Shown piece by piece: positions 2 through 10,253 of a stretch of 10,254 bases of DNA. Position 1 is the stretch's first letter. Each line of letters begins with the position of its first letter. A program made the position numbers and the translations under genes. Under the pieces are notes generated by a model that was given only the letters and a program-made list of their open reading frames with translations, did no database searches and had not been told where the DNA came from. Origin of the DNA: Candidatus Pacearchaeota archaeon (GTDB lineage: Archaea > Nanobdellota > Nanobdellia > Pacearchaeales > GW2011-AR1); NCBI GenBank assembly GCA_003694055.1, contig RFLC01000023.1, positions 1 through 10,254 of the forward strand, written 5' to 3'.

Positions 2-733
2 GCGCAAGAAGGGGATAAAGAGAGCAGGGATAAATTGGTTTTGCACAACTTAGGGATTGCAATTGAGCTAGCCTGGCGATACAAGCAGAGAGTTCCGCAT
101 GTTGAACTTGATGATTTAATTAGCGAGGCAAGCATAGGTTTAATCAATGCAGTTGATAATTACGACCCTTGTAGGAGAACTAAGTTCAGCACTTATGCGT
201 TTGATTGCGCCCGTTATCGAATTCAGCAGTATCTTGCAGATTCTTCCCACATTAGAATTCCGAACAATGTGAGACGCAAGGTCTTTAATGTTGTTAGGGT
301 TGCTGATGAGTTGAGGGTTAGGAAATGTCGCGAGCCAACAGCGGAGGAGGTTGCAGAAGAGCTGAATGCTTCGCAAAATAGAAAGCAGTACAGACCTGAT
401 TTTGTTGAGTTGGCGCTGCGCGCTTACAGAAATCGTTATCCTTTCTCTTTGTACCAGCCGTTTTATCCTAACGACGATAGGCCTTTGATTAAGTTTGTTG
501 CTGCGCGCAATGGAAATGGGAGGAATGGCGTTGAGCTGAAAATGCTTCGGGAGGATGTTGATAGATTGCTTAGGCGTTTGGATGTGCGCGAGAGGGACAA
601 AAAGCTGTTTCGCATGGTTTATTTTGAGGGCAAGTCGAAAAGCGTGGCTGGCAAGAAGTTCGGACTTACGCGCGAGCGGGCAAGACAGATTTGCGATTAT
701 GTTCTTGAAGAGTTGAGAAAGGTTATGAGGTGA
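2..733 (+). CDS. RNA polymerase sigma-70 family factor, 5'-truncated by the window edge
   Basis: This is a sigma-70-type initiation factor, which would direct RNA polymerase to promoters. The frame is open from base 2. The TTG at 35 is probably not the start, because the codons before it read AQEGDKESRDK, typical of the segment that opens region 2.1, so 243 residues are visible and the N-terminus is missing. In order: region 2.1 (to about 95); region 2.2, VELDDLISEASIGL (101-142), the polymerase clamp-binding helix; regions 2.3-2.4, KFSTYAF..IRIP (182-264); region 3, EPTAEEVAEELN (about 335-370); a sigma-finger-like SLYQPFYPNDDRPL (446-487); and region 4, with a helix-turn-helix ending in LTRERARQI (665-691). 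In place of the tryptophan pair of primary sigmas, the residues after FSTYAF are Asp-Cys (203-208), which suggests an alternative (group 3-like) sigma. Family assignment is secure. Its target promoters and its use with an archaeal polymerase are inference. Confidence 0.93.
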   Translation, partial: AQEGDKESRDKLVLHNLGIAIELAWRYKQRVPHVELDDLISEASIGLINAVDNYDPCRRTKFSTYAFDCARYRIQQYLADSSHIRIPNNVRRKVFNVVRVADELRVRKCREPTAEEVAEELNASQNRKQYRPDFVELALRAYRNRYPFSLYQPFYPNDDRPLIKFVAARNGNGRNGVELKMLREDVDRLLRRLDVRERDKKLFRMVYFEGKSKSVAGKKFGLTRERARQICDYVLEELRKVMR

Positions 734-895: not shown

Positions 896-909
896 TTATA
901 TTTATATAT
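896..909 (+). promoter_or_regulatory. Archaeal TATA box for a probably leaderless transcript
   Basis: TTATATTTATATAT stands out in otherwise mixed sequence and is centred about 27 bases before the ATG at 930. Archaeal TATA boxes sit about 26 bases upstream of the transcription start, so transcription would begin at or next to the start codon. No Shine-Dalgarno sequence lies before 930, which agrees with leaderless initiation. A purine-rich BRE is not obvious just upstream (GCGTGCGG). No TTGACA-like -35 box is present at sigma-70 spacing. Confidence 0.7.
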
Positions 910-929: not shown

Positions 930-2819
930 ATGCAAAAAAGAGGTCAGGTGACGATTTTTATTATCGTCGCTGTTGCTATTGTTGCAGGAGTTTTGACTTA
1001 TTTGCTTGTGCAGAAAAGTGTTGGGAGTGAGAGCGTGCCAAGCGATTTGAAGCCGGTGTTTGATACTTACTTGTCGTGCATAAGGCAGGAGGCAAGGAAT
1101 GCTGTTGATATCGCTCTAACGCAAGCTGGCTACATCGAGCCGCCGGAGTACGATCCGCCCAGCGATTACGCTCCCTTCTCGTCTGAACTGAACTTTCTCG
1201 GCATACCTGTGCCTTTTTGGATGTACCAGTCTGGCAACGGCTTAATCAAAGAGCAGATTCCGACTGAGCAGGAGATGGAACGTCAGATTGGAGATTTCAT
1301 TCAGGAGCGTTTGAAAGAGTGCGACTTGCAGGAATTTCTTTCGCAAGGAATTGAGGTTGAGGTTGACGAGCCGATTGTGAATGTCAATTTGGAGGATGAC
1401 AAAATGAGAGTGGACGTGCGCGCGGCGATGAGCGCGAGCGATGGCGAGACAAGCGCGAGGAAAACGCGTTACAAGGTTGAGATACCGACGCGGTTGAAGA
1501 GGTTTTACAAGGTTGCGAAAGAGATTTATCAGCGCGAGAAAGAGGAAGGTTTTTTGGAGCAGTATGCAATTGACACGCTAAACCTGAACGCTCCTGTCGA
1601 CGGGGTTGAGATTCAGTGCGCGCCAAAGGTTTGGTCAACGCGCGAAGTTGTCGAGGGAGTGAAGCGCGCGCTCGCAGACAATTTTGCGACGATAAAATTC
1701 TCGGACAAGTATGTTAAGGGCAAGGAAAGGGAGTACTTTTTGGTTGACATGGGGATTGGGGAGCAGGTTAGCGTGCTTTATTTTCCTGACTGGCCAAGCA
1801 AGATTGAGGTTTCTGGAGAGGGGGTGAGCAAGGCGACGATGGTTGCAAAACCGATTGGAGCAGAGCAGGGGCTTGGCGTGCTTGGCATGTGCTATGTGCC
1901 GTATCATTTTGTTTACGACATCAGCGTGCCTGTGCTTGTGCAGATTTACGACGGAGAGGAGAGCTTCCAGTTCCCGATTGTTGTGCTTGTTGACAACAAC
2001 CTTCCGCGGCAAATCAAGTCAAAGTTGAACTTGAGCGCAAGCGGGCAGGGAGCAGAGTTTGACCTTTGCAAGTACCGCACTCAAACACTGCAAGTGAATG
2101 TGTTTGATTCCAACTTCCGGCCTGTGAATGCTGACCTTTCATTCGGTTGTTTTGAGCAGAGGTGTCCGCTTGGCAAGGCAAAAGGCGGAACTCTCGTCGC
2201 AAAAGTGCCGCAGTGCGTTAACGGGTTTGTGTATGCAAGCGCAGACGGGTATGTGAAATCAAAGGCAAAGGTTTCGACAAACAGAGAGAACAGCGTTGAT
2301 GTGCTGATGGAGCGCAAGTTCCCGGTGAGGGTTGAGCTTTTTGTGAACGGAAGGAAGTTTGATGCGCAGAACTCTCGCGCGGTTGTTTCGTTCTTGCGCG
2401 ACGACGGATTTGGAGCGTCGCTGGCAATCCCAGAGTCTGGAACGAATGTTGTTGAGTTGCCCGACGGGAATTATGAGATTAGGGTTTATGTTTACTCAAA
2501 CTCCAAGCTTAGTTTGCCGCCAAGCACGCAGGTGAAGTGCGTGCAGGTTCCTAAGCAGGGCTTGCTCGGCGTGTTCGGAGCAAAAGAGGAGAACTGCTTT
2601 AATGTTCAAACCCCTGCGACGAGCTTGAACTTTGCTCTCATCGGAGGAGGAAAGCTTAAGCGATTTTTGACTCAGCAAGAGCTTAGCACTGGCCGCTTGA
2701 ACTTGTTTGTTCCTTCGTTCGGCAACCCGAGCTCGATTGATGAGCTGCAACGCAACTTTGTCTTGTTTGGCTCAAGCGAGCTAGGCTTGGAAGTCGGAGG
2801 TGGAAATGCAAGGAGATAG
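930..2819 (+). CDS. Membrane-anchored extracellular protein of a DPANN-type surface family (629 aa)
   Basis: This is probably an envelope protein held by one N-terminal membrane segment, with the rest outside the cell. The N-terminus MQKRGQVTIFII followed by hydrophobic residues to about 27 resembles an archaeal class III (pilin-type) signal, but it lacks the usual glutamate, so it may be an uncleaved anchor. Residues 38-135 hold a helical segment with Cys50 and Cys131. A second helical part begins at Cys230 (IQCAPKVWSTREVV). Residues about 380-465 read like a carboxypeptidase-regulatory-type beta sandwich (VNVFD..FRPVNADLSF, Cys407, Cys411, PQCVNGF, ADGY). Another beta-rich part follows. The ATG at 930 is supported by the TATA box 27 bases upstream. 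The gene's end overlaps the next gene, so the pair probably forms one operon. I recognise the family type from small-genome archaea, but no function is known to me. Confidence 0.88.
   Translation: MQKRGQVTIFIIVAVAIVAGVLTYLLVQKSVGSESVPSDLKPVFDTYLSCIRQEARNAVDIALTQAGYIEPPEYDPPSDYAPFSSELNFLGIPVPFWMYQSGNGLIKEQIPTEQEMERQIGDFIQERLKECDLQEFLSQGIEVEVDEPIVNVNLEDDKMRVDVRAAMSASDGETSARKTRYKVEIPTRLKRFYKVAKEIYQREKEEGFLEQYAIDTLNLNAPVDGVEIQCAPKVWSTREVVEGVKRALADNFATIKFSDKYVKGKEREYFLVDMGIGEQVSVLYFPDWPSKIEVSGEGVSKATMVAKPIGAEQGLGVLGMCYVPYHFVYDISVPVLVQIYDGEESFQFPIVVLVDNNLPRQIKSKLNLSASGQGAEFDLCKYRTQTLQVNVFDSNFRPVNADLSFGCFEQRCPLGKAKGGTLVAKVPQCVNGFVYASADGYVKSKAKVSTNRENSVDVLMERKFPVRVELFVNGRKFDAQNSRAVVSFLRDDGFGASLAIPESGTNVVELPDGNYEIRVYVYSNSKLSLPPSTQVKCVQVPKQGLLGVFGAKEENCFNVQTPATSLNFALIGGGKLKRFLTQQELSTGRLNLFVPSFGNPSSIDELQRNFVLFGSSELGLEVGGGNARR
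2796..2802 (+). promoter_or_regulatory. Shine-Dalgarno site deciding the start of the giant gene
   Basis: GGAGGTG lies inside the end of the upstream gene. Its GGAGG core ends five bases before the ATG at 2806, which is good spacing. The in-frame GTG at 2800 overlaps the motif and would have only a weak GGAAG before it. This favours 2806 and suggests translational coupling, since the upstream gene stops at 2817-2819. Confidence 0.65.
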
Positions 2820-5800
2820 TTTGTTAGCAGGTGAAAGGGTTGGGCGCAAGGGTTGGCTAGTTTTAGTGATGCTCATGCTGGTAGTGGTTTTAGCAGGGGT
2901 TGCGTGGAGTGTGGAGGTGAGCGCGCAGGCAGTCGGGCCAGTTGGAGCGGCTCAGGGAGGAGCTGTTGCTAACCCTGACGCGCCGTTCGCGCGAGCTAGC
3001 GCTAGCACTTCTTTCTCGAGTTCAACTGGCACAGGCGCGAGTTTTGTTACAAGGCAGGAGCAAGCGACTTACCAGCCAACAGGTTCGCTGCTCGGCAGGT
3101 CGCAGCCAATAAACGAGAGAGACATTTGCGTTAACCGAGGGGATTTGATTTTGAACGTTAGGCCGTTCAGTTGCAAACCTCAGGTTGTGAGGAGCGACTT
3201 GTTGGAAGAGCAGGATGTGCAGGTGTTTTGCGAGCTCGATGCTGTGAAAGCCAATCCATTGCTTGATGCGATAACATTGCGCAACGTTAGAATCAAGGCA
3301 GACGCTCCGCCTGAGGTGCGCGGCACAGCGTTCAGGCCTGCGAAAGCAGCGTTGAGGAGAAGGAGTGTTGTACTTGACAACCCGCTCTACGGCAACCTTG
3401 GGTATGTTGTGATTGTGCTGAAAAGGCAGCCTGTTGAGGCGCGCATGCCAGACTCTGTCACGGTCAACTTCAGCGTTGAGCTTGACTACTCTGCAACAAA
3501 CGCGTTTGGAGTGGGCAGAGAGGAGTTCATGCTCTCGCCGACAACTGACGAGGAATGGGAGAGAACAAGATTCCAAGGAGCGTTCTGGCGAGGGAAGTAT
3601 TTCTTGCGTTTAGAGGATGTTGACAACAATCGCGCAAGGGTTTCGGTTTACGATGGCAGGGAAAAAATAGCAAGCGCAGTTGTCAATAAGGGCGAGCTCT
3701 CTAGGCCGATTTACTTGCGAGGGAGTTTTTGCAATGAGGGGTTGCAGATAGCTTACGACGAGCTGATTTCCGACGAGCCGCGCGCTGAGATTGAGGTGAC
3801 GCAGGATTTCTCGACCGACAAGTTCTTGGTTGGAGAGCGCGAGAAGTTCTTTGGCAACAAGTGCATTGCAACAGATTTGCAGGTGAACGAGGACGGGGTT
3901 AGCGGGAGCGTTAAGGTGAGGTGCGGCACGCGTTCGTTCACGCTGAGCATTGGCAACGCACTTGGCAAGGATGTGCATTTTGAGTTCAGAGGCAAGCAGT
4001 ACGCTCCTAAGTTTGAAAGTGGCAAGTACGTGCTTGACCTGCGCGACATTGAGAGCAAGTGGAACGGCACTTATGAGCTCGGAGAGAACAACGAGCTTTT
4101 CTGGACGCCGTCAAAAGTCGGGAGGATTGAGAAGGTTATCGACGAGAACAACAGACTCAAGTCAGAGTTCAGCTCTGGAAAGCAATTTTTTGATTTGGTG
4201 AGGGCTAAGCTGGTTGAGTTCAAGAATGCTAGGGAAGAAACTTCGCAAGAGAGCAAGATTGAGCCGGGTGCAAGGGCTTATTACGACAAGGCAATTGCAA
4301 ATTATGAGCGCGTGGCAGATGAGTACACAAAAGCGCGCGACCCAAGCGGGAGGTTTTATGGCGAGCGGGCGTTGAGGAATGCGATTGAACTGGCAAGGGC
4401 GTTTGGCGACACTGAAACCATGCAGAGATTGACTGGGAAGTACTCTCGCCTTTATCCGGACGGAGATTATGTCGAGGAGTTCAAGAGGGAAGTGGACAAG
4501 AGGAAGGGTCTTGACTATTCTGGCTCTGTTGCGACAATTCAGTTGAATGGCAAGGAGACGCTTGTGCGCCTGACAGGGTTCCACATGCCTCAAGAGCGTT
4601 CAACTGCGACTTTTGTGTTTGCTAACGAGCAGCGCACGCTTGCGCGGGGAGGAAGGGTTGGGCTTTATCTTGATGATAAGAAAGTTGCAGATGTTGTTTT
4701 GCGAGAGGTCGGGCTTGGCAGGGCAAAGATAGATGCGTATTGCGTGCGCGACGGAAGGATTGCCGACGAGCCTGTGAGCTACAACCTGCGCGAAGACGGA
4801 GGGAGCGTGAGCGTGTGCGGAAAGATGAGCGCAACTCTCTTGCATGCAGATGTTGCGAGCGTGGCGAAGTTGCGCGTGCTGCCGTTTGTTGGCGAAGGCA
4901 AATCTGTTGGGCAGTTTGATGTGACAATTGGCATTGAGAAGCGTGCGTTCAAGCTCAACACTCTTGACGCGCTTGAGAAAATCAACTCGCTCAACCGCAC
5001 AATTGCAAAATGGCAGCGCATGTCAGACCAGCTTGGGCAGTTTGTTTCAGGAATGAAGGGCGCTTGCTTAGCAACTTCAATGGCTTTGAGCTTTAAGAAT
5101 TTCCTCGGAGGGTTGAATGGGGAGTCGCTTGCGCGGCAGGAGGTGATGTCAGGAGACAACGGATGGAAAGCAAAGTGCGAGGAATGGGTTAGTCAAGGAA
5201 GGTATGTTTCAATGACTGCCTGCTACAACGCTCACGCTGGAGAGATTGATGGAGATGTGGCAAGGTATGCGGGCGTGATAAACAGGATTAATGCAGAGAT
5301 TAACGCAGTGCAGGCAAGGCATCAGGTTTCTTCTGGTGGAGGATTGTTCAACCTCTTCGGAGGTTCGGCAGTTGACAGCGATAAGGTTAGGGAAGAGCTT
5401 GCGCGGATTGCCAAGCGCCGCTACGGCGACTTGGAGATAGATGTTTCCTCGCTCCCGCATGGCTGGACTGATGCGAGCGGAAAGCAAAAGGACAAGGTCA
5501 AGGTGAGCGAGCTTTTGTCAGATGAGAATGTGAAGAACGGGCTTGTGACAACTGATGCTGTGCGCTCTATCATGCTTTACGGCGAGCTCAAGCGCTCGGG
5601 TGGGGTGAGCGAGGTGCAGCGAGCCAACCTCGACGACAAATTGAAAGAGGTTGCAGGGTTGGTGAACAACAACAGGATTGTTTACAGCTCGATGCAAAAG
5701 CGCGAGCAGCTTGTGAGCGAGGGCTTTGCGCGGCCGCTTGTTCTCTCATCGTTCGCTTCAAAGGCAACTCCTGTGAATGTTGTTCCAGCAGCAAGGGTGG

Positions 5801-8800
5801 CAAACAAGCTCAGCTTCAGCCCGGGCGTGACGCACACAACAAGCGTGATAGTTTCCGCGAAGAATGCAAAAGGAGGCGGGACTTTTGATAGCGGAACTTA
5901 CATTCTTGGCTTGACCGAGGCAGATCCTTCTAAAGGTTACTTCCTTGTTAAAGATGTTTACTTGAAGAAAGGGAATGAGTTTGAAAAGTTGCCTCCTGAG
6001 CTGGCGAAGGAGTTTGCAAACACCTACAACCTCGGGCTTGTGCGGGCGGCAGAGAGCGTTGGGTATCACAATCCAATTGCAAAGCAGGACAGGGTTGTGA
6101 GGTATTTTGAGAACGAGCCTTACAAGGGCATGCCTGCGATTGTGCCGTTTGATTTGGAACGGGGTTGGTATGCTGCAACTAAGCAAACCCTGCCTGTGTT
6201 CGGAGGGATAGGTGCGTTTGACGCTAGCGGAAAGGTTGTGAGCTTCTGGCTTTGCAATGTTGGAGAGAACGGAAGGATTGAGTTTGAGAAAGGCATTGGA
6301 GATGATGTCTGCCAGCAAATCAACCTGAACACAGGCCAGCCGCTTGGAGTGTTCCCTGGGTTGAGCGCGAGCGAGGCAAGGGCGCTGGTTGACAAGGCAG
6401 TGAGGGCAGTGCAAGATGCTGCAAATGCCTACGGCTCTGGCAAGAGGTATGTGAGGGTTGCAGGAACGCAGGTTGAGGTTGGCAAGCCAGCAGTTGGCAA
6501 GCCAGAAACGCAATGCCAGGACTTCATGTCCCCCACTGACTGCTTGATTTTGTTCAATGTTTGCGACCCAGTGATTTGCCCGCCGTCGAGGTGCGACCTT
6601 GGCGGCCAGTACCCTGTTGCAGATGTTGTCCAAACTGGCATTATCGGAAGCTTGGTTCTTTGCTTGCCAAACATAAAGGAAGGGGTAGCAATACCAATTT
6701 GCTTGACAGGTGTGAAAGCAGGGCTTGACGGCTACATCTCAATCCTGAAGAACTACCGCGACTGCTTGCAGGCGCATGTTGAAACCGGCCAGATGCTTGG
6801 GTTGTGCGACCAGCTTTACTCAGTGTATTTGTGCGACTTCTTCTGGGGTCAGATTGGGCCTCTCATGGATGTGCTAATTCCAAAGCTTCTTGAGACGATG
6901 TACGGGCAGGGCGTTCGCGGCGGTGCAGAGTACCTAACTGTGAACGCTGCTTGGCAGAACATGCAGAAGTCAATGAACTACTTCACGCAAAGTTATGCTG
7001 GCAACTCTTTCAAGGCGTTCAACTTGCGCACTGGAGGGAAGTTCGACGCTGGCGCGTTGTTCTCTGGCTCGATAAGCTTGGCAAGCGGGGAGATTTGCAA
7101 GTCGTTTGTCTCGCAAAAAGCTCCTGCAGTGTTTGAGGCGCTGGTTGAGCCAGACAGCCCGCCGCAGTTCTACGCATACTTTGACCAAAGGCCGTTTAAC
7201 GATGCGCAAGTGCCTGCGCGTGCGCACTACAAGGTGTTCTATCACATTTACGCTGGCAATGACTTTGGAGTGCAGTACATGGTTTACTTGCGCAACCCGC
7301 CGTCCTCGTCATACTACGCAATCTCTCCAAGGCAAGTTGTTGCAACTGGTTTCATTCCGCGAGGGGAGTATGCCTCGCAAACCAAGGACTTTACTGCGCC
7401 AGCTGGCTACAAAGAGTTGTGCGTGAGGATAAACAACCAAGAGGAGTGCGGGTTCAAGCAGGTGACGAGCAACTTTGCTTTGAATTACTTGAAGGACAGC
7501 TTTGCAAAGCAGGAGATTGAGCGCAGGCAAATTACTAGCGAGAAGGAGTGCGTGAGCGGCAGCACGAACGCGTTTGCTTTGCTCAACCCTAACCTGCAGT
7601 CAGCAGCTGAAGAGGCGCTGAATCCGAATGTTTACGAGCGAGGGATAATCCGCATTTGCTCAACCCAAAACCCTGGACTTGGCACAGACCCGACGAGGTT
7701 TGTTGATGTTGGGTATTGCGACAACAAGAAAGTGAGGTGCTGGCTTGACAAGAGCAGTGTTGACAATGCGCTCTCAACAAGCGCAGTTGGGATGAAGAAC
7801 CAGACGCTTGCAGAGCTTGATGCACTTGCACAGCGCGCGCTTGAGAAGCAGGGCTTGTTGAGCAACGAGGAGTCGCTAGCTGCGTTGGTGGAGATGGAGC
7901 GAAGGATTGAAGGGCTTGTTCCGCTCTCAGCGGCAGACGCAGGACAGCAAGGGATTGAGTTGAGCGCGCAGCTTGACGAGCTCTTTAACAAGGTCTTGCT
8001 TGACACTCACAAGGCAGGTGTGGTTTACTTGAAGGGCCGCTTGAACGAGATTCTCGCGCGAAAGAACTTTAGAGGGGTTGGGGTGACGCGCGAACCAAAG
8101 AGCATTTTGAAAGAGAGCGTGGTGGGGGCAAGAGGAGAAACAGGAGCGCAGACAGAACAGGGAGCGCAAACTCCGAGCGAGCAGCGGCAAGAGAGCAGGC
8201 AGGGTGGAAGGCAAGAACAAACAGGTGAAAATGCGACTCCTGCAGCCGAAGGTAATTTGAACTTCTTTATGGACGGAAGTTGGGTGAGGGTTGATATTAC
8301 TGCTAATGGAACAACTTATTCTTATGCGCTGAACGAGAGCGATGCTCTATTGTTTTACGCTAGTTGGGAGGAGTGGATAGATGTTTTCAAGGATCCGCGC
8401 GCTGGGTTTGGGAAGAAGACATCTCAGGAGAAGCAGTGGCTAGTGCAATTGAGAATCAAGATGATTGATTTTAGGGACAGGCAGAGCAGGAGCAGGGATT
8501 CTAGGGATGCGACTGGAGAGGGTTCTGCACCCACCTCAACTGGAGCCGGCGGCAGCTCTGACACCAGCGGCGCAACAGCTGACAGCTCTTCTGGCGGGCA
8601 AGCGAGTTGCGCTCTAACTGATGTGCATTGGGAGAATGATCAAGGGCAGGAGATTGTTCAGGTGGACGAGGGCAAGGATGTTTTTGCGCTTGTGGAGTTC
8701 AGCGGAGATTGCAGCGGGAAAGAGCTAGAAATTAAGCTTGAAGAGGTCGGTGTGGTGTGGAATCCAGACATTAACACTGCTTTATACACGATCAAGGAAG

Positions 8801-9669
8801 GAGAGAGGAGCTACAAGGTTCGCTGGACAAGTGATAATTTTGAAGCAGACAATAGATATAAGTTCACAGCTTCGCTGGGTTTGGAGAGGAAAGAGTCGCA
8901 AGAGCTAGAGGTTTTATCGGCTGGAGGGGCTGGCGCATGCCAGCTGATTGATGCGTATTGGGAAGAAAAAGATACTGGGTTTAAGCTAGGAAAAGAACTG
9001 CCGCCGCGCGGGAGGGTGGCAAGAATTAATCAGCCGCTTTACATGGTTGCTAAACTCTCTGGAGAGTGCGCGGGAAAGAGGGTTGGATTTTTAGTGAAAA
9101 AGAATCAAAGGTTCTGGGCAGATTCTGAGGTAAGTGATGAGATGGCTAAGCAGGTTGGGCAAAGCACAAACGAGGGAGAGTTTATTGTTAAGAAAGAGTT
9201 TGAGTTTAAGGACGCAGGAGATTATTATTTCCTTGTTTCGTTCTATCCGTCTGGAGAGCAGGAAACGAGAGCAGATTTGAGGGTGGAAGACAGAACTTAT
9301 GGGGGTGTGCAGGATTCGCAGTTTTTCAAAACAATGGCGTTTAGTTTTAGGCAGGCAGGTAATGGTGAGTATAGGTTGTATTATCAGCCGGCGGTTGGAG
9401 CAGGGTTGGTGGACACAGGGATTTATGCGAAAGAAAGGGTTTTGAAATTTGGCAGCAGTGCAATCGGCACGCTTAATCCGCATTCTTTAGATGAGATGGT
9501 TTCTAGAGGTTTGACCGAAATACATCTTAGTGTTAGCTCGCAGTTCAAGAATTACACGTTTGACTCTGATGGTTTGAGGAATGTTAAACTAGAAGTGCTT
9601 GATGACGCAAGGGTTTGGAGGGATCGCGAACCTGGCACTCTTGTTTTGAGGTTGAAGCTAGCACGTTAG
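2806..9669 (+). CDS. Giant secreted multidomain surface protein (about 2287 aa)
   Basis: This is an exported envelope protein. A basic start (ERVGRKG) and a hydrophobic core (16-36) end in an AQA that could be cut by signal peptidase after residue 42. An Ala/Ser-rich linker follows. Residues 105-162 hold the conserved-looking block RDICVNRGDLIL..CKPQVV..LLEEQDVQVFC. A TPR-like helical segment covers 486-570 and a coiled-coil-like one 716-750, followed by a hydrophobic helix near 752-770. Cys1237, 1246, 1253, 1258 and 1263 cluster before a Cys-rich, partly hydrophobic helical region to about 1365. A Gln-rich linker (about 1775-1817) and a Ser/Gly/Thr linker (1905-1932) lead to two related beta domains (1935-2037, 2045-2160). 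No C-terminal membrane helix is visible. The ATG at 2806 is chosen over the GTG at 2800 from the ribosome binding site. The start overlaps the previous gene by 14 bases. I recognise the family type from DPANN archaea; its function is unknown. Confidence 0.88.
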   Translation: MQGDSLLAGERVGRKGWLVLVMLMLVVVLAGVAWSVEVSAQAVGPVGAAQGGAVANPDAPFARASASTSFSSSTGTGASFVTRQEQATYQPTGSLLGRSQPINERDICVNRGDLILNVRPFSCKPQVVRSDLLEEQDVQVFCELDAVKANPLLDAITLRNVRIKADAPPEVRGTAFRPAKAALRRRSVVLDNPLYGNLGYVVIVLKRQPVEARMPDSVTVNFSVELDYSATNAFGVGREEFMLSPTTDEEWERTRFQGAFWRGKYFLRLEDVDNNRARVSVYDGREKIASAVVNKGELSRPIYLRGSFCNEGLQIAYDELISDEPRAEIEVTQDFSTDKFLVGEREKFFGNKCIATDLQVNEDGVSGSVKVRCGTRSFTLSIGNALGKDVHFEFRGKQYAPKFESGKYVLDLRDIESKWNGTYELGENNELFWTPSKVGRIEKVIDENNRLKSEFSSGKQFFDLVRAKLVEFKNAREETSQESKIEPGARAYYDKAIANYERVADEYTKARDPSGRFYGERALRNAIELARAFGDTETMQRLTGKYSRLYPDGDYVEEFKREVDKRKGLDYSGSVATIQLNGKETLVRLTGFHMPQERSTATFVFANEQRTLARGGRVGLYLDDKKVADVVLREVGLGRAKIDAYCVRDGRIADEPVSYNLREDGGSVSVCGKMSATLLHADVASVAKLRVLPFVGEGKSVGQFDVTIGIEKRAFKLNTLDALEKINSLNRTIAKWQRMSDQLGQFVSGMKGACLATSMALSFKNFLGGLNGESLARQEVMSGDNGWKAKCEEWVSQGRYVSMTACYNAHAGEIDGDVARYAGVINRINAEINAVQARHQVSSGGGLFNLFGGSAVDSDKVREELARIAKRRYGDLEIDVSSLPHGWTDASGKQKDKVKVSELLSDENVKNGLVTTDAVRSIMLYGELKRSGGVSEVQRANLDDKLKEVAGLVNNNRIVYSSMQKREQLVSEGFARPLVLSSFASKATPVNVVPAARVANKLSFSPGVTHTTSVIVSAKNAKGGGTFDSGTYILGLTEADPSKGYFLVKDVYLKKGNEFEKLPPELAKEFANTYNLGLVRAAESVGYHNPIAKQDRVVRYFENEPYKGMPAIVPFDLERGWYAATKQTLPVFGGIGAFDASGKVVSFWLCNVGENGRIEFEKGIGDDVCQQINLNTGQPLGVFPGLSASEARALVDKAVRAVQDAANAYGSGKRYVRVAGTQVEVGKPAVGKPETQCQDFMSPTDCLILFNVCDPVICPPSRCDLGGQYPVADVVQTGIIGSLVLCLPNIKEGVAIPICLTGVKAGLDGYISILKNYRDCLQAHVETGQMLGLCDQLYSVYLCDFFWGQIGPLMDVLIPKLLETMYGQGVRGGAEYLTVNAAWQNMQKSMNYFTQSYAGNSFKAFNLRTGGKFDAGALFSGSISLASGEICKSFVSQKAPAVFEALVEPDSPPQFYAYFDQRPFNDAQVPARAHYKVFYHIYAGNDFGVQYMVYLRNPPSSSYYAISPRQVVATGFIPRGEYASQTKDFTAPAGYKELCVRINNQEECGFKQVTSNFALNYLKDSFAKQEIERRQITSEKECVSGSTNAFALLNPNLQSAAEEALNPNVYERGIIRICSTQNPGLGTDPTRFVDVGYCDNKKVRCWLDKSSVDNALSTSAVGMKNQTLAELDALAQRALEKQGLLSNEESLAALVEMERRIEGLVPLSAADAGQQGIELSAQLDELFNKVLLDTHKAGVVYLKGRLNEILARKNFRGVGVTREPKSILKESVVGARGETGAQTEQGAQTPSEQRQESRQGGRQEQTGENATPAAEGNLNFFMDGSWVRVDITANGTTYSYALNESDALLFYASWEEWIDVFKDPRAGFGKKTSQEKQWLVQLRIKMIDFRDRQSRSRDSRDATGEGSAPTSTGAGGSSDTSGATADSSSGGQASCALTDVHWENDQGQEIVQVDEGKDVFALVEFSGDCSGKELEIKLEEVGVVWNPDINTALYTIKEGERSYKVRWTSDNFEADNRYKFTASLGLERKESQELEVLSAGGAGACQLIDAYWEEKDTGFKLGKELPPRGRVARINQPLYMVAKLSGECAGKRVGFLVKKNQRFWADSEVSDEMAKQVGQSTNEGEFIVKKEFEFKDAGDYYFLVSFYPSGEQETRADLRVEDRTYGGVQDSQFFKTMAFSFRQAGNGEYRLYYQPAVGAGLVDTGIYAKERVLKFGSSAIGTLNPHSLDEMVSRGLTEIHLSVSSQFKNYTFDSDGLRNVKLEVLDDARVWRDREPGTLVLRLKLAR
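6478..6505 (+). repeat. Two-copy 15-base tandem repeat inside the giant gene
   Basis: GTTGGCAAGCCAG occurs at 6478-6490 and again at 6493-6505, a 15-base period that keeps the frame. It encodes VGKPA followed by VGKPE, a short linker just before the cysteine cluster. It is probably a small in-frame duplication. Confidence 0.8.
8608..9288 (+). repeat. Tandem pair of related beta-sandwich-like domains in the giant protein
   Basis: Copy one (8608-8916) starts CALTDVHWE, has FSGDCSGKELEI 30-odd residues later, and ends YKFTASL..ELEV. Copy two (8938-9288) starts CQLIDAYWE, has LSGECAGKRVGF, and ends YYFLVSF..ADLRV. The order and spacing of these motifs match, and each copy carries one cysteine at its start and one in the xGxCxGK motif, which could form a disulfide. 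This indicates an internal duplication of an Ig-like or similar module of about 105-115 residues. The fold is inferred from the strand-like pattern, not proven. Confidence 0.7.
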
Positions 9670-9788: not shown

Positions 9789-10253
9789 TTATTCCTCAAC
9801 TCCTAATTGCTTTAGAGCTTCTTTTACTTTATTTTCGTAATCTCGTTTGTCCATTTCTCCTTCATTAGCTGCTATTTTTATTTCTAGATTATCAAACTTA
9901 GATTGTAGAAAATTTAATAATCCTAATAGCTGAGAAACTTTGCCTTTGGGAATCTTAATCAATGGCAATTCAAGCTTAGAAATAGTTTCCTTTTTTTCTT
10001 CCTCGTAAAATGTTTCCTTTTTTACAGTCTTTTGTTTAGAAACCTCTTCTAGCGGCTTCTCTAATTCTCTCTCACAAATCGATTTGTCAATCAGAACTTC
10101 GCATTCTTCAAACCCTAGAGTTGGCTCTTTCTTCCAATAAACAGGGATTATTTTTCCAGATTTAATTTCTCCAAGACCAAATATACCTTGAACAACACCC
10201 TCTCTTATTGCGTCCTCTAATGTTTCTTTACTTAATATCCTATCTTCTCCCAA
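9789..10253 (-). CDS. C-terminal part of a DUF499/COG1483-like AAA ATPase (tentative), truncated by the window edge
   Basis: The last 154 codons of a minus-strand gene are visible, ending at TAA (9791-9789). The TTG at 10253 is the only available start and has no visible ribosome binding site, so the gene very likely begins beyond the right edge. The visible N-terminal part (SKETLEDAIREGVVQGIFGLG, then PVYW) looks like a winged-helix-type segment. A charged, probably disordered linker follows (EEVSKQKTVKKETF..EEEKKE). The end has IPKGKVSQLLGLL and a GEMDKRDYENKVKEAL helix. I associate this arrangement with the C-terminus of DUF499 (COG1483) ATPases, roughly 1000-residue proteins found beside DNA methylases in archaeal defence-type clusters. 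That match is from memory and uncertain; the ATPase domain itself is not in the window. The gene is convergent with the operon and clearly more AT-rich. Confidence 0.85.
   Translation of the reverse strand: MGEDRILSKETLEDAIREGVVQGIFGLGEIKSGKIIPVYWKKEPTLGFEECEVLIDKSICERELEKPLEEVSKQKTVKKETFYEEEKKETISKLELPLIKIPKGKVSQLLGLLNFLQSKFDNLEIKIAANEGEMDKRDYENKVKEALKQLGVEE

Follow-up and report, generated by a model that had tools for sequence, protein, structure and literature searches.

Transcription start differs between bacteria and archaea. The window analysed here is a stretch of 10,254 nucleotides, the entire contig of a metagenome-assembled genome (G000; 995 kb in 270 contigs), and it opens with a reading frame that resembles a bacterial sigma-70 factor, next to genes of archaeal type. 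This raises the questions whether the protein is a true sigma factor, whether its gene resides in an archaeon, and with which polymerase it may act.

A 2025 paper (PMC12316311) contains the statement that archaea lack sigma factors. Passages of Castelle et al. 2021 (PMC8204110) describe sigma-70 genes (fam00359) in DPANN archaea, particularly in Woesearchaeota, where mis-binning was ruled out through the co-encoded proteins; according to the same passages, TBP, TFB and TFE are present too, no anti-sigma factor was found and the mechanism was not known. Our literature search of titles and abstracts gave no other paper on sigma factors in these archaea. Since sigma-70 in DPANN was already reported in 2021, the novelty of an archaeal sigma factor is lower than the earlier note on this DNA had proposed, and what the present analysis adds is a further case and a sharper puzzle.

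The features of the window, with nucleotide positions and strand, are:

2 to 733, plus strand: sigma-70 family protein of 243 amino acids, 5' end missing at the contig start
38 to 244, plus strand: sigma region 2 (residues 13-81), seen by Pfam, alignment and fold model
290 to 382, plus strand: sigma region 3 (residues 97-127), just under the Pfam cut-off
440 to 502, plus strand: degenerate region 3.2, the finger (residues 147-167, PFSLYQPFYPNDDRPLIKFVA), placed by alignment and a low-confidence model
590 to 721, plus strand: sigma region 4 (residues 197-240), with the putative -35 reader motif TRERARQ, in which R584, E585 and Q589 of RpoD are retained
903 to 908, plus strand: TATA box (TATATA), its first letter 27 nt ahead of the next gene's ATG
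930 to 2819, plus strand: 629-aa protein with a hydrophobic N-terminus and relatives in Nanoarchaeota/Pacearchaeota
2800 to 9669, plus strand: giant 2289-aa protein whose family, known from Pacearchaeota/Nanoarchaeota, includes members with an SLT transglycosylase domain
9789 to 10253, minus strand: 154-aa ORF at the contig end

Sequence and fold comparisons confirmed ORF 2-733 as a genuine bacterial-type sigma-70 protein. In Pfam, Sigma70_r2 (41.8 bits, cut-off 24) and Sigma70_r4 (36.1 bits, cut-off 24.1) were found above threshold and Sigma70_r3 slightly below it (24.5 bits, cut-off 25.3). Forty-five NCBIfam families matched at E <= 0.001, the best models being of the SigB/RpoD type (111.6 bits, residues 6-241); among the best 25 of the 45, the sigma70-ECF superfamily model alone exceeded its cut-off, the rest scoring far under theirs. 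A phmmer search against PDB sequences aligned SigA with residues 5-240 (E 2.2e-24), and the ORF can be aligned over nearly its full length to solved SigA and RpoS. The E-values of these matches exclude chance. With regions 2 and 4 above their Pfam cut-offs and an almost end-to-end alignment to SigA/RpoS, the protein is, as the earlier note had held, a multi-domain sigma factor beyond an isolated helix-turn-helix. The same note had regarded regions 2, 3, 3.2 and 4 as all recognisable, which is true of 2 and 4 but only in part of the other two: region 3 stays just below its cut-off, and region 3.2 can be recognised through the alignment alone, as the finger (residues 147-175) was modelled by AlphaFold2 with a pLDDT under 50. 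The model, made from a 42-sequence alignment, had a mean pLDDT of 74.8. Region 2, comprising the core-binding helix 2.2 (DDLISEASIGLINAV) and the melting/-10 segment (KFSTYAFDCARYRIQQYLAD), was modelled with high confidence and superposed on solved region 2 structures with an rmsd of 1.0-1.7 A over 75-83 residues, while region 4 had a pLDDT of about 50-71. The contig starts within the ORF, which therefore lacks its 5' end; the N-terminus of the protein, and region 1.2 too if present, lie outside the window.

At the residue level the protein keeps D403, E407, Y430, R584, E585 and Q589 (RpoD numbering), and it has D, C, Y and Q at W433, W434, Q437 and T440, which we take to be the residues that read the -10 element. 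With these four replaced, the protein is not a canonical primary (group 1) sigma factor. In the alignment with PDB sequences, the acidic residues of the finger are mostly gone. The roles of the RpoD, RpoC and RpoB positions in sigma binding are those that we presume throughout.

The genome to which the contig belongs is 79.65% complete with 1.03% contamination, and judged by its marker genes it is archaeal and Pacearchaeota-like. Its 16S gene scored best as archaeal (1371.5 bits), its TFB has two TFIIB repeats within one 350-aa ORF, and it has an archaeal RNA polymerase operon in which ORFs for an Rpo5-like protein, Rpo2 and Rpo1 precede those for NusA-like and ribosomal proteins (names read from the sequence); Rpo1 was confirmed against PDB sequences. 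The archaeal genome assumed in the earlier note is thereby supported by 16S, TFB and polymerase operon alike. No TBP was found in this genome, which is unsurprising given its incompleteness. The Rpo1 of G000 (L086 5034-8465, G000:C174) is a single ORF of 1143 amino acids, while the matched archaeal PDB entries have two subunits, Rpo1N and Rpo1C; Rpo1 open frames measure about 1140-1190 amino acids in most genomes of family f1 and about 860-900 in other families.

The neighbouring genes point the same way. The 629-aa protein, which begins MQKRGQVTIFII, is present in nine of the ten genus genomes (G000 included), and 119 other listed relatives are 41-49% identical to it, with taxon-named sources given as Nanoarchaeota, Pacearchaeota or just 'archaeon'; these relatives fix the contig as archaeal. 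The TATATA at 903 to 908 lies at the position usual for a predicted leaderless archaeal promoter. Both the DPANN-type context and the archaeal TATA box that had been read from the sequence therefore hold, the latter at -27 of the ATG. Further, shorter ORFs match the N-terminus of the 629-aa protein in the genus genomes. After this gene, in eight of eight other genus loci read, follows the gene for the 2289-aa protein, which has an N-terminal hydrophobic segment and at least 259 homologues, 119 others being listed at 34-49% identity. Some of these homologues carry PF01464 (SLT transglycosylase), PF18013 or PF10030, and one, from a Pacearchaeota archaeon, is named at NCBI as a transglycosylase SLT domain-containing protein. 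The window's own copy gave no transglycosylase match in Pfam, and Pfam searches at E up to 1 on both neighbours gave sub-cut-off matches only. The 154-aa ORF had no match in Pfam or NCBIfam; its region has just 33% GC, and the GC skew reverses there.

Several indirect lines indicate that the sigma gene is resident in the archaeal genome. A chimeric contig or a mis-binned bacterial fragment has to be considered, as the ORF sits at the very end of the contig, its stretch has 44-47% GC against 50-56% across most of the remaining contig, and synteny upstream of the 629-aa gene is not conserved within the genus, so that the join between 733 and 930 cannot be confirmed by synteny. Against this, the codon usage of the ORF fits G000, which makes a chimeric join unlikely: with a model built on 13 other genes of G000, it scored -1.095 per codon, with 13 of 46 G000 gene pieces scoring lower, compared with -1.30 for E. 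coli rpoD and -1.25 to -1.39 for four other sigma genes of the phylum. Moreover, the 119 other homologues listed are all distant (27-38% identity), so that no bacterial donor is in sight, and the neighbouring gene, only 196 bp off, is archaeal. In G004, which belongs to the same genus, a different sigma region lies on a contig with a TFB ORF and tbp. Given the codon usage, the archaeal neighbour and the other sigma genes that share contigs with archaeal markers, we consider an assembly or binning error very unlikely. Like the DPANN sigma genes reported before, ORF 2-733 is thus, by indirect lines, encoded by an archaeal chromosome beside archaeal genes.

Sigma genes are widespread, yet patchy, in the phylum. 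A protein search with the window sigma in 140 genomes (G000 and 139 relatives) was positive in 22, G000 counted, and gave no match in the nine other genus genomes. The sigma region 2 family was found in 128 of 371 sampled phylum genomes, in 123 of them over the cut-off, and in 93 of 243 high-quality genomes of the phylum; ten of 14 control genomes were positive in this search, all ten of them bacteria. The family search also detected other sigmas in three genomes of the same genus (G004, G005, G009), and the genus seems to exchange its sigma genes. A sigma match and archaeal rpo1 lie on the same contig in ten of 33 sigma-positive genomes (G081, G139, G140, G170, G171, G189, G198, G245, G247 and G300), of which G139 is one contig of 1.3 Mb, while the sigma match on the rpo1 contig of G140 is partial; in at least three further genomes (G004, G010, G016) a sigma match and tbp lie on one contig. 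The 37 kb contig of G004 (G004:C3) has orthologues of both window neighbours as well as a 207-aa ORF that matches sigma region 2, seemingly no orthologue of the window sigma as it was missed by the search with the window protein. This short sigma ORF adjoins a TFB ORF (read from the sequence; L153 15226-17315), with tbp about 10 kb on, so that sigma, TFB and TBP genes lie inside 12 kb of one archaeal contig.

TBP was found in 130 of the 140 genomes, G000 being among those searched; of the 22 genomes that the window-protein search had scored as sigma-positive, 21 had TBP, the exception being the incomplete G000. Together with the TFB of G000, this bears out the expectation that both kinds of factor occur in one genome; a sigma factor that replaces TBP was rejected on the same counts. 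Among long relatives of the window sigma, region 1.2 was found in nine of ten tested, and regions 1.2, 2, 3 and 4 were all found in eight of the ten. Several phylum genomes have long primary-like sigmas (L123-L152; more than 400 and up to about 750 amino acids) in which a variable stretch separates region 1.2 from region 2, and one genome, G185, has six region 2 matches.

In a midpoint-rooted tree of 60 archaeal and 26 other sequences, in which many nodes had low support, the archaeal sigmas fell into 24 archaeal-only groups, many of them weakly supported; one archaeal clade joined six sequences from four families with a support of 0.89. The tree suggests several acquisitions together with some long residence or spread inside the phylum. 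At L082 and L088 (G055:C40 and G016:C4), two genera have a common neighbour block around sigmas of different tree groups, as though different sigmas had entered the same place in the chromosome. A conserved sigma operon was rejected, since the largest neighbour family shared in an all-against-all comparison of the window and 25 loci comprised four loci. Two locus pairs, G016/G055 and G067/G127, have several genes in common, and these are ordinary archaeal genes, e.g. for SRP54/FtsY-like and ribosomal proteins (read from the sequence). We also considered a viral origin; in one scan of viral contigs, which reaches close relatives only, none of 39 pattern matches was a relative.

How are these sigma genes themselves expressed, and are they under constraint? 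A TATA-like hexamer starting at -32 to -23 was present at 23 of 55 sigma genes of the phylum, compared with 5.7 +/- 2.2 (maximum 15) in 1000 shuffles, the pattern having been fixed after the upstream sequences were viewed and the ORF starts being mechanical. Other genes of the same loci had such a hexamer at the same place in 133 of 481 cases, a control obtained from 147 of 518 by removing 37 sigma ORFs. The window sigma is outside this count because its start is missing. By this signal, the phylum's sigma genes look like ordinary, often leaderless archaeal genes. Among 16 sigma pairs with at least 40% identity, one was identical, eight (seven distinct) had dN/dS values of 0.33-0.59 and seven were saturated; at such large dS, these values are weak evidence of constraint. 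The same-genus pairs in this range were 41-51% identical, apart from the one identical pair. Across nine same-genus pairs, partly non-independent (one sequence is used twice in two species pairs) and of presumed orthology, identity peaked in regions 2.1 (0.54), 2.2 (0.54), 2.3 (0.64), 2.4 (0.49) and 4.2 (0.54) and was lowest in 3.0/3.1 (0.25-0.26), with 0.34 in 3.2 and 4.1 and 0.38 in 1.2. No internal stops were seen in the sigma matches listed.

With regard to the fit between sigma and polymerase, the two sides give different pictures. Among 65 sigma ORFs of the phylum, a set that includes the window's ORF, was chosen with an HMM from 23 of 27 ORFs and leans to canonical sigmas as it includes loci of the 30 best-scoring region 2 matches, D403 was kept in 62, E407 in 52, W434 in 51 and Q437 in 47; the short region-2 ORF of G004 was left out. 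R584, E585 and Q589 were kept in 46, 50 and 54 of the 63 with region 4. Similar fractions were found at the same positions in 30 bacterial sigmas, most of which came from matches of the window sigma.

On the polymerase side, position 275 in the Rpo1 clamp coil of 53 genomes (RpoC numbering) is occupied by A, I, S or V, 281 by E, 293 by D or E, 295 by L (one F), 296 by W, 297 by D or E and 302 by H; all seven positions differ from E. coli, several with the charge reversed, while N276 (D in two genomes), R278, L279 and P288 are kept. Within family f1, the coils of 20 sigma-positive and 20 sigma-lacking genomes are alike beyond scattered single changes, and an adaptation of the polymerase to sigma was thus not seen inside this family. 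Thirteen genomes of other families have V273, I275, F280 and I283, but as all 13 are sigma-positive, family and sigma effects are inseparable here; Rpo1 of the PDB entry aligned has I at 275 and 283 as well. The RpoB flap segment between two conserved motifs comprises 31 residues in G000 versus 138 in E. coli, a figure that includes lineage-specific insertions. By our reading of the alignment, the flap tip helix that holds region 4 is absent. Exactly one Rpb1_1 match was found in each of the 53 genomes, and this search, which detects RpoC in bacteria, gave no second, bacterial RpoC in any of them; the archaeal polymerase is therefore the sole partner found in the cell. The earlier note had argued that a conserved clamp coiled coil makes the use of sigma by an archaeal polymerase possible. 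This argument is weakened, since the coil can be aligned but differs at seven positions, looks the same with or without sigma within family f1, and is accompanied by a shorter flap.

The bacterial promoter consensus gave no signal either. The 33 sigma-positive genomes (33.8 Mb) had 38 occurrences of TTGACA-N16-18-TATAAT and the 20 sigma-lacking ones (14.2 Mb) had 22, compared with 43 and 23 occurrences at the wrong spacing N22-24 and with 31 and 17, and 37 and 15, for backward control patterns; the consensus is thus not enriched in the sigma-positive genomes. A genome-wide set of bacterial promoters was not seen by this search for the exact consensus, which leaves room for a small or divergent regulon.

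The explanation that we favour is a resident, archaeal-encoded alternative (group 3-like) sigma-70 that most likely acts with the archaeal RNA polymerase via a changed contact. Because of the mismatch on the polymerase side, it remains somewhat short of an even chance. Under this explanation, the sigma genes of the phylum, which collectively seem to be driven by TBP/TFB promoters of archaeal type, would encode proteins whose regions 2 and 4 read promoter DNA. On the archaeal RNA polymerase, the only one of the cell, the sigma would serve few genes as an alternative factor for initiation or promoter opening; its region 2.2 would occupy the clamp coiled coil, where it would compete with TFE and Spt4/5, in a contact unlike the bacterial one. 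For this speaks that the alignments show the polymerase- and DNA-facing residues of the sigma set to be conserved about as in bacteria. Against it count the lack of the E. coli residues in the clamp coil, the short flap, the missing enrichment of the consensus and, in the window protein itself, the loss of W433/W434 and of much of the finger. We infer binding to the archaeal polymerase, transcription initiation and target genes; for the window sigma, core binding and promoter-specific initiation are predicted, and two initiation systems may run on one polymerase. The main rival is a sigma-derived regulator with no initiation of its own, which would attach to promoter-like DNA through regions 2.4 and 4.2, hinder or assist transcription by TBP/TFB, and not engage the polymerase in the manner of a bacterial sigma. 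An archaeal polymerase devoid of bacterial-type docking residues and flap tip would suit such a regulator, as would the conserved region 4.2 (0.54 in same-genus pairs) and the absence of a bacterial promoter signal. However, region 2.2 (0.54) and the strand-capturing region 2.3 (0.64), needless for a protein that only binds double-stranded DNA, are conserved at least as well as 4.2, and region 1.2 persists in nine of the ten long relatives tested. We regard this rival as rather unlikely.

It is also conceivable that bacterial genes are repeatedly acquired, have little or no function in the archaeon and are being lost. The patchy occurrence (the window protein matches none of nine other genus genomes, while G004, G005 and G009 have other sigmas), the polyphyly of 60 archaeal sequences in 24 archaeal-only groups and the rapid divergence (same-genus pairs listed are 41-51% identical, one identical pair apart) would be expected from such a turnover. 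About a third of the sampled phylum genomes carry at least one sigma, however, with no internal stops among the matches listed, an archaeal promoter signal, dN/dS below 1 and an archaeal clade (support 0.89) whose six members come from four families, which together make turnover without function improbable. In passages of PMC8204110, Castelle et al. 2021 propose bacteria as possible hosts of some Pacearchaeota and Woesearchaeota, the hint being fam00969, an SLT transglycosylase family. The sigma might then be delivered to a bacterial partner cell and work with the bacterial polymerase there, so that its surfaces stay bacterial while the cell's own polymerase is unmatched and the sigma-positive genomes have no excess of the bacterial consensus promoter. 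The family of the nearby giant protein has SLT members and fits the description of fam00969, a likeness by description only that adds a little to this reading through the link to bacterial hosts made in the same passages. Nevertheless, the window's giant protein is itself without a transglycosylase match, and several region 2 matches per genome (six in G185) fit internal regulation equally well. To our knowledge, there is no demonstrated bacterial host for this lineage. Delivery to a partner seems very unlikely to us. Still less probable is that the sigma is a cross-domain tool, expressed from archaeal promoters with bacterial surfaces kept for acting on the polymerase of a bacterial partner; if true, it would explain the bacterial sigma surfaces, the unmatched archaeal polymerase and the lack of a bacterial-promoter excess at once.

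Returning to the resident alternative sigma factor that we favour, genomes with sigma, TBP/TFB and one polymerase found in each are a natural test of mixing two systems. The contradiction is sharpened by our data, as the sigma keeps the residues that face polymerase and promoter while the polymerase side is unmatched. Either the archaeal polymerase uses sigma by an unknown contact, or these proteins act unlike known sigmas.

Like archaeal TFB (TFIIB), a sigma factor recognises promoter DNA and extends into the cleft of the polymerase. Unlike TFB, the window protein has no TFIIB match in the Pfam search, and G000 has a separate TFB. With the bacterial sigmas (SigB/SigF/SigG, RpoS and SigA/RpoD), the window sigma shares regions 2, 3 (just below the Pfam cut-off) and 4 in this order, 27-40% identity over most of its length and the TRERxRQ motif of region 4.2; it differs from them in lacking the residues W433, W434, Q437 and T440, in its degenerate finger and in its archaeal genome. 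Closest to the present case are the DPANN sigma-70 genes described in passages of PMC8204110, which likewise occur alongside TBP/TFB; there Woesearchaeota are stressed, whereas the genome studied here is Pacearchaeota-like, and the present analysis goes beyond those passages in testing the polymerase, the promoter consensus and the promoters of the sigma genes themselves.
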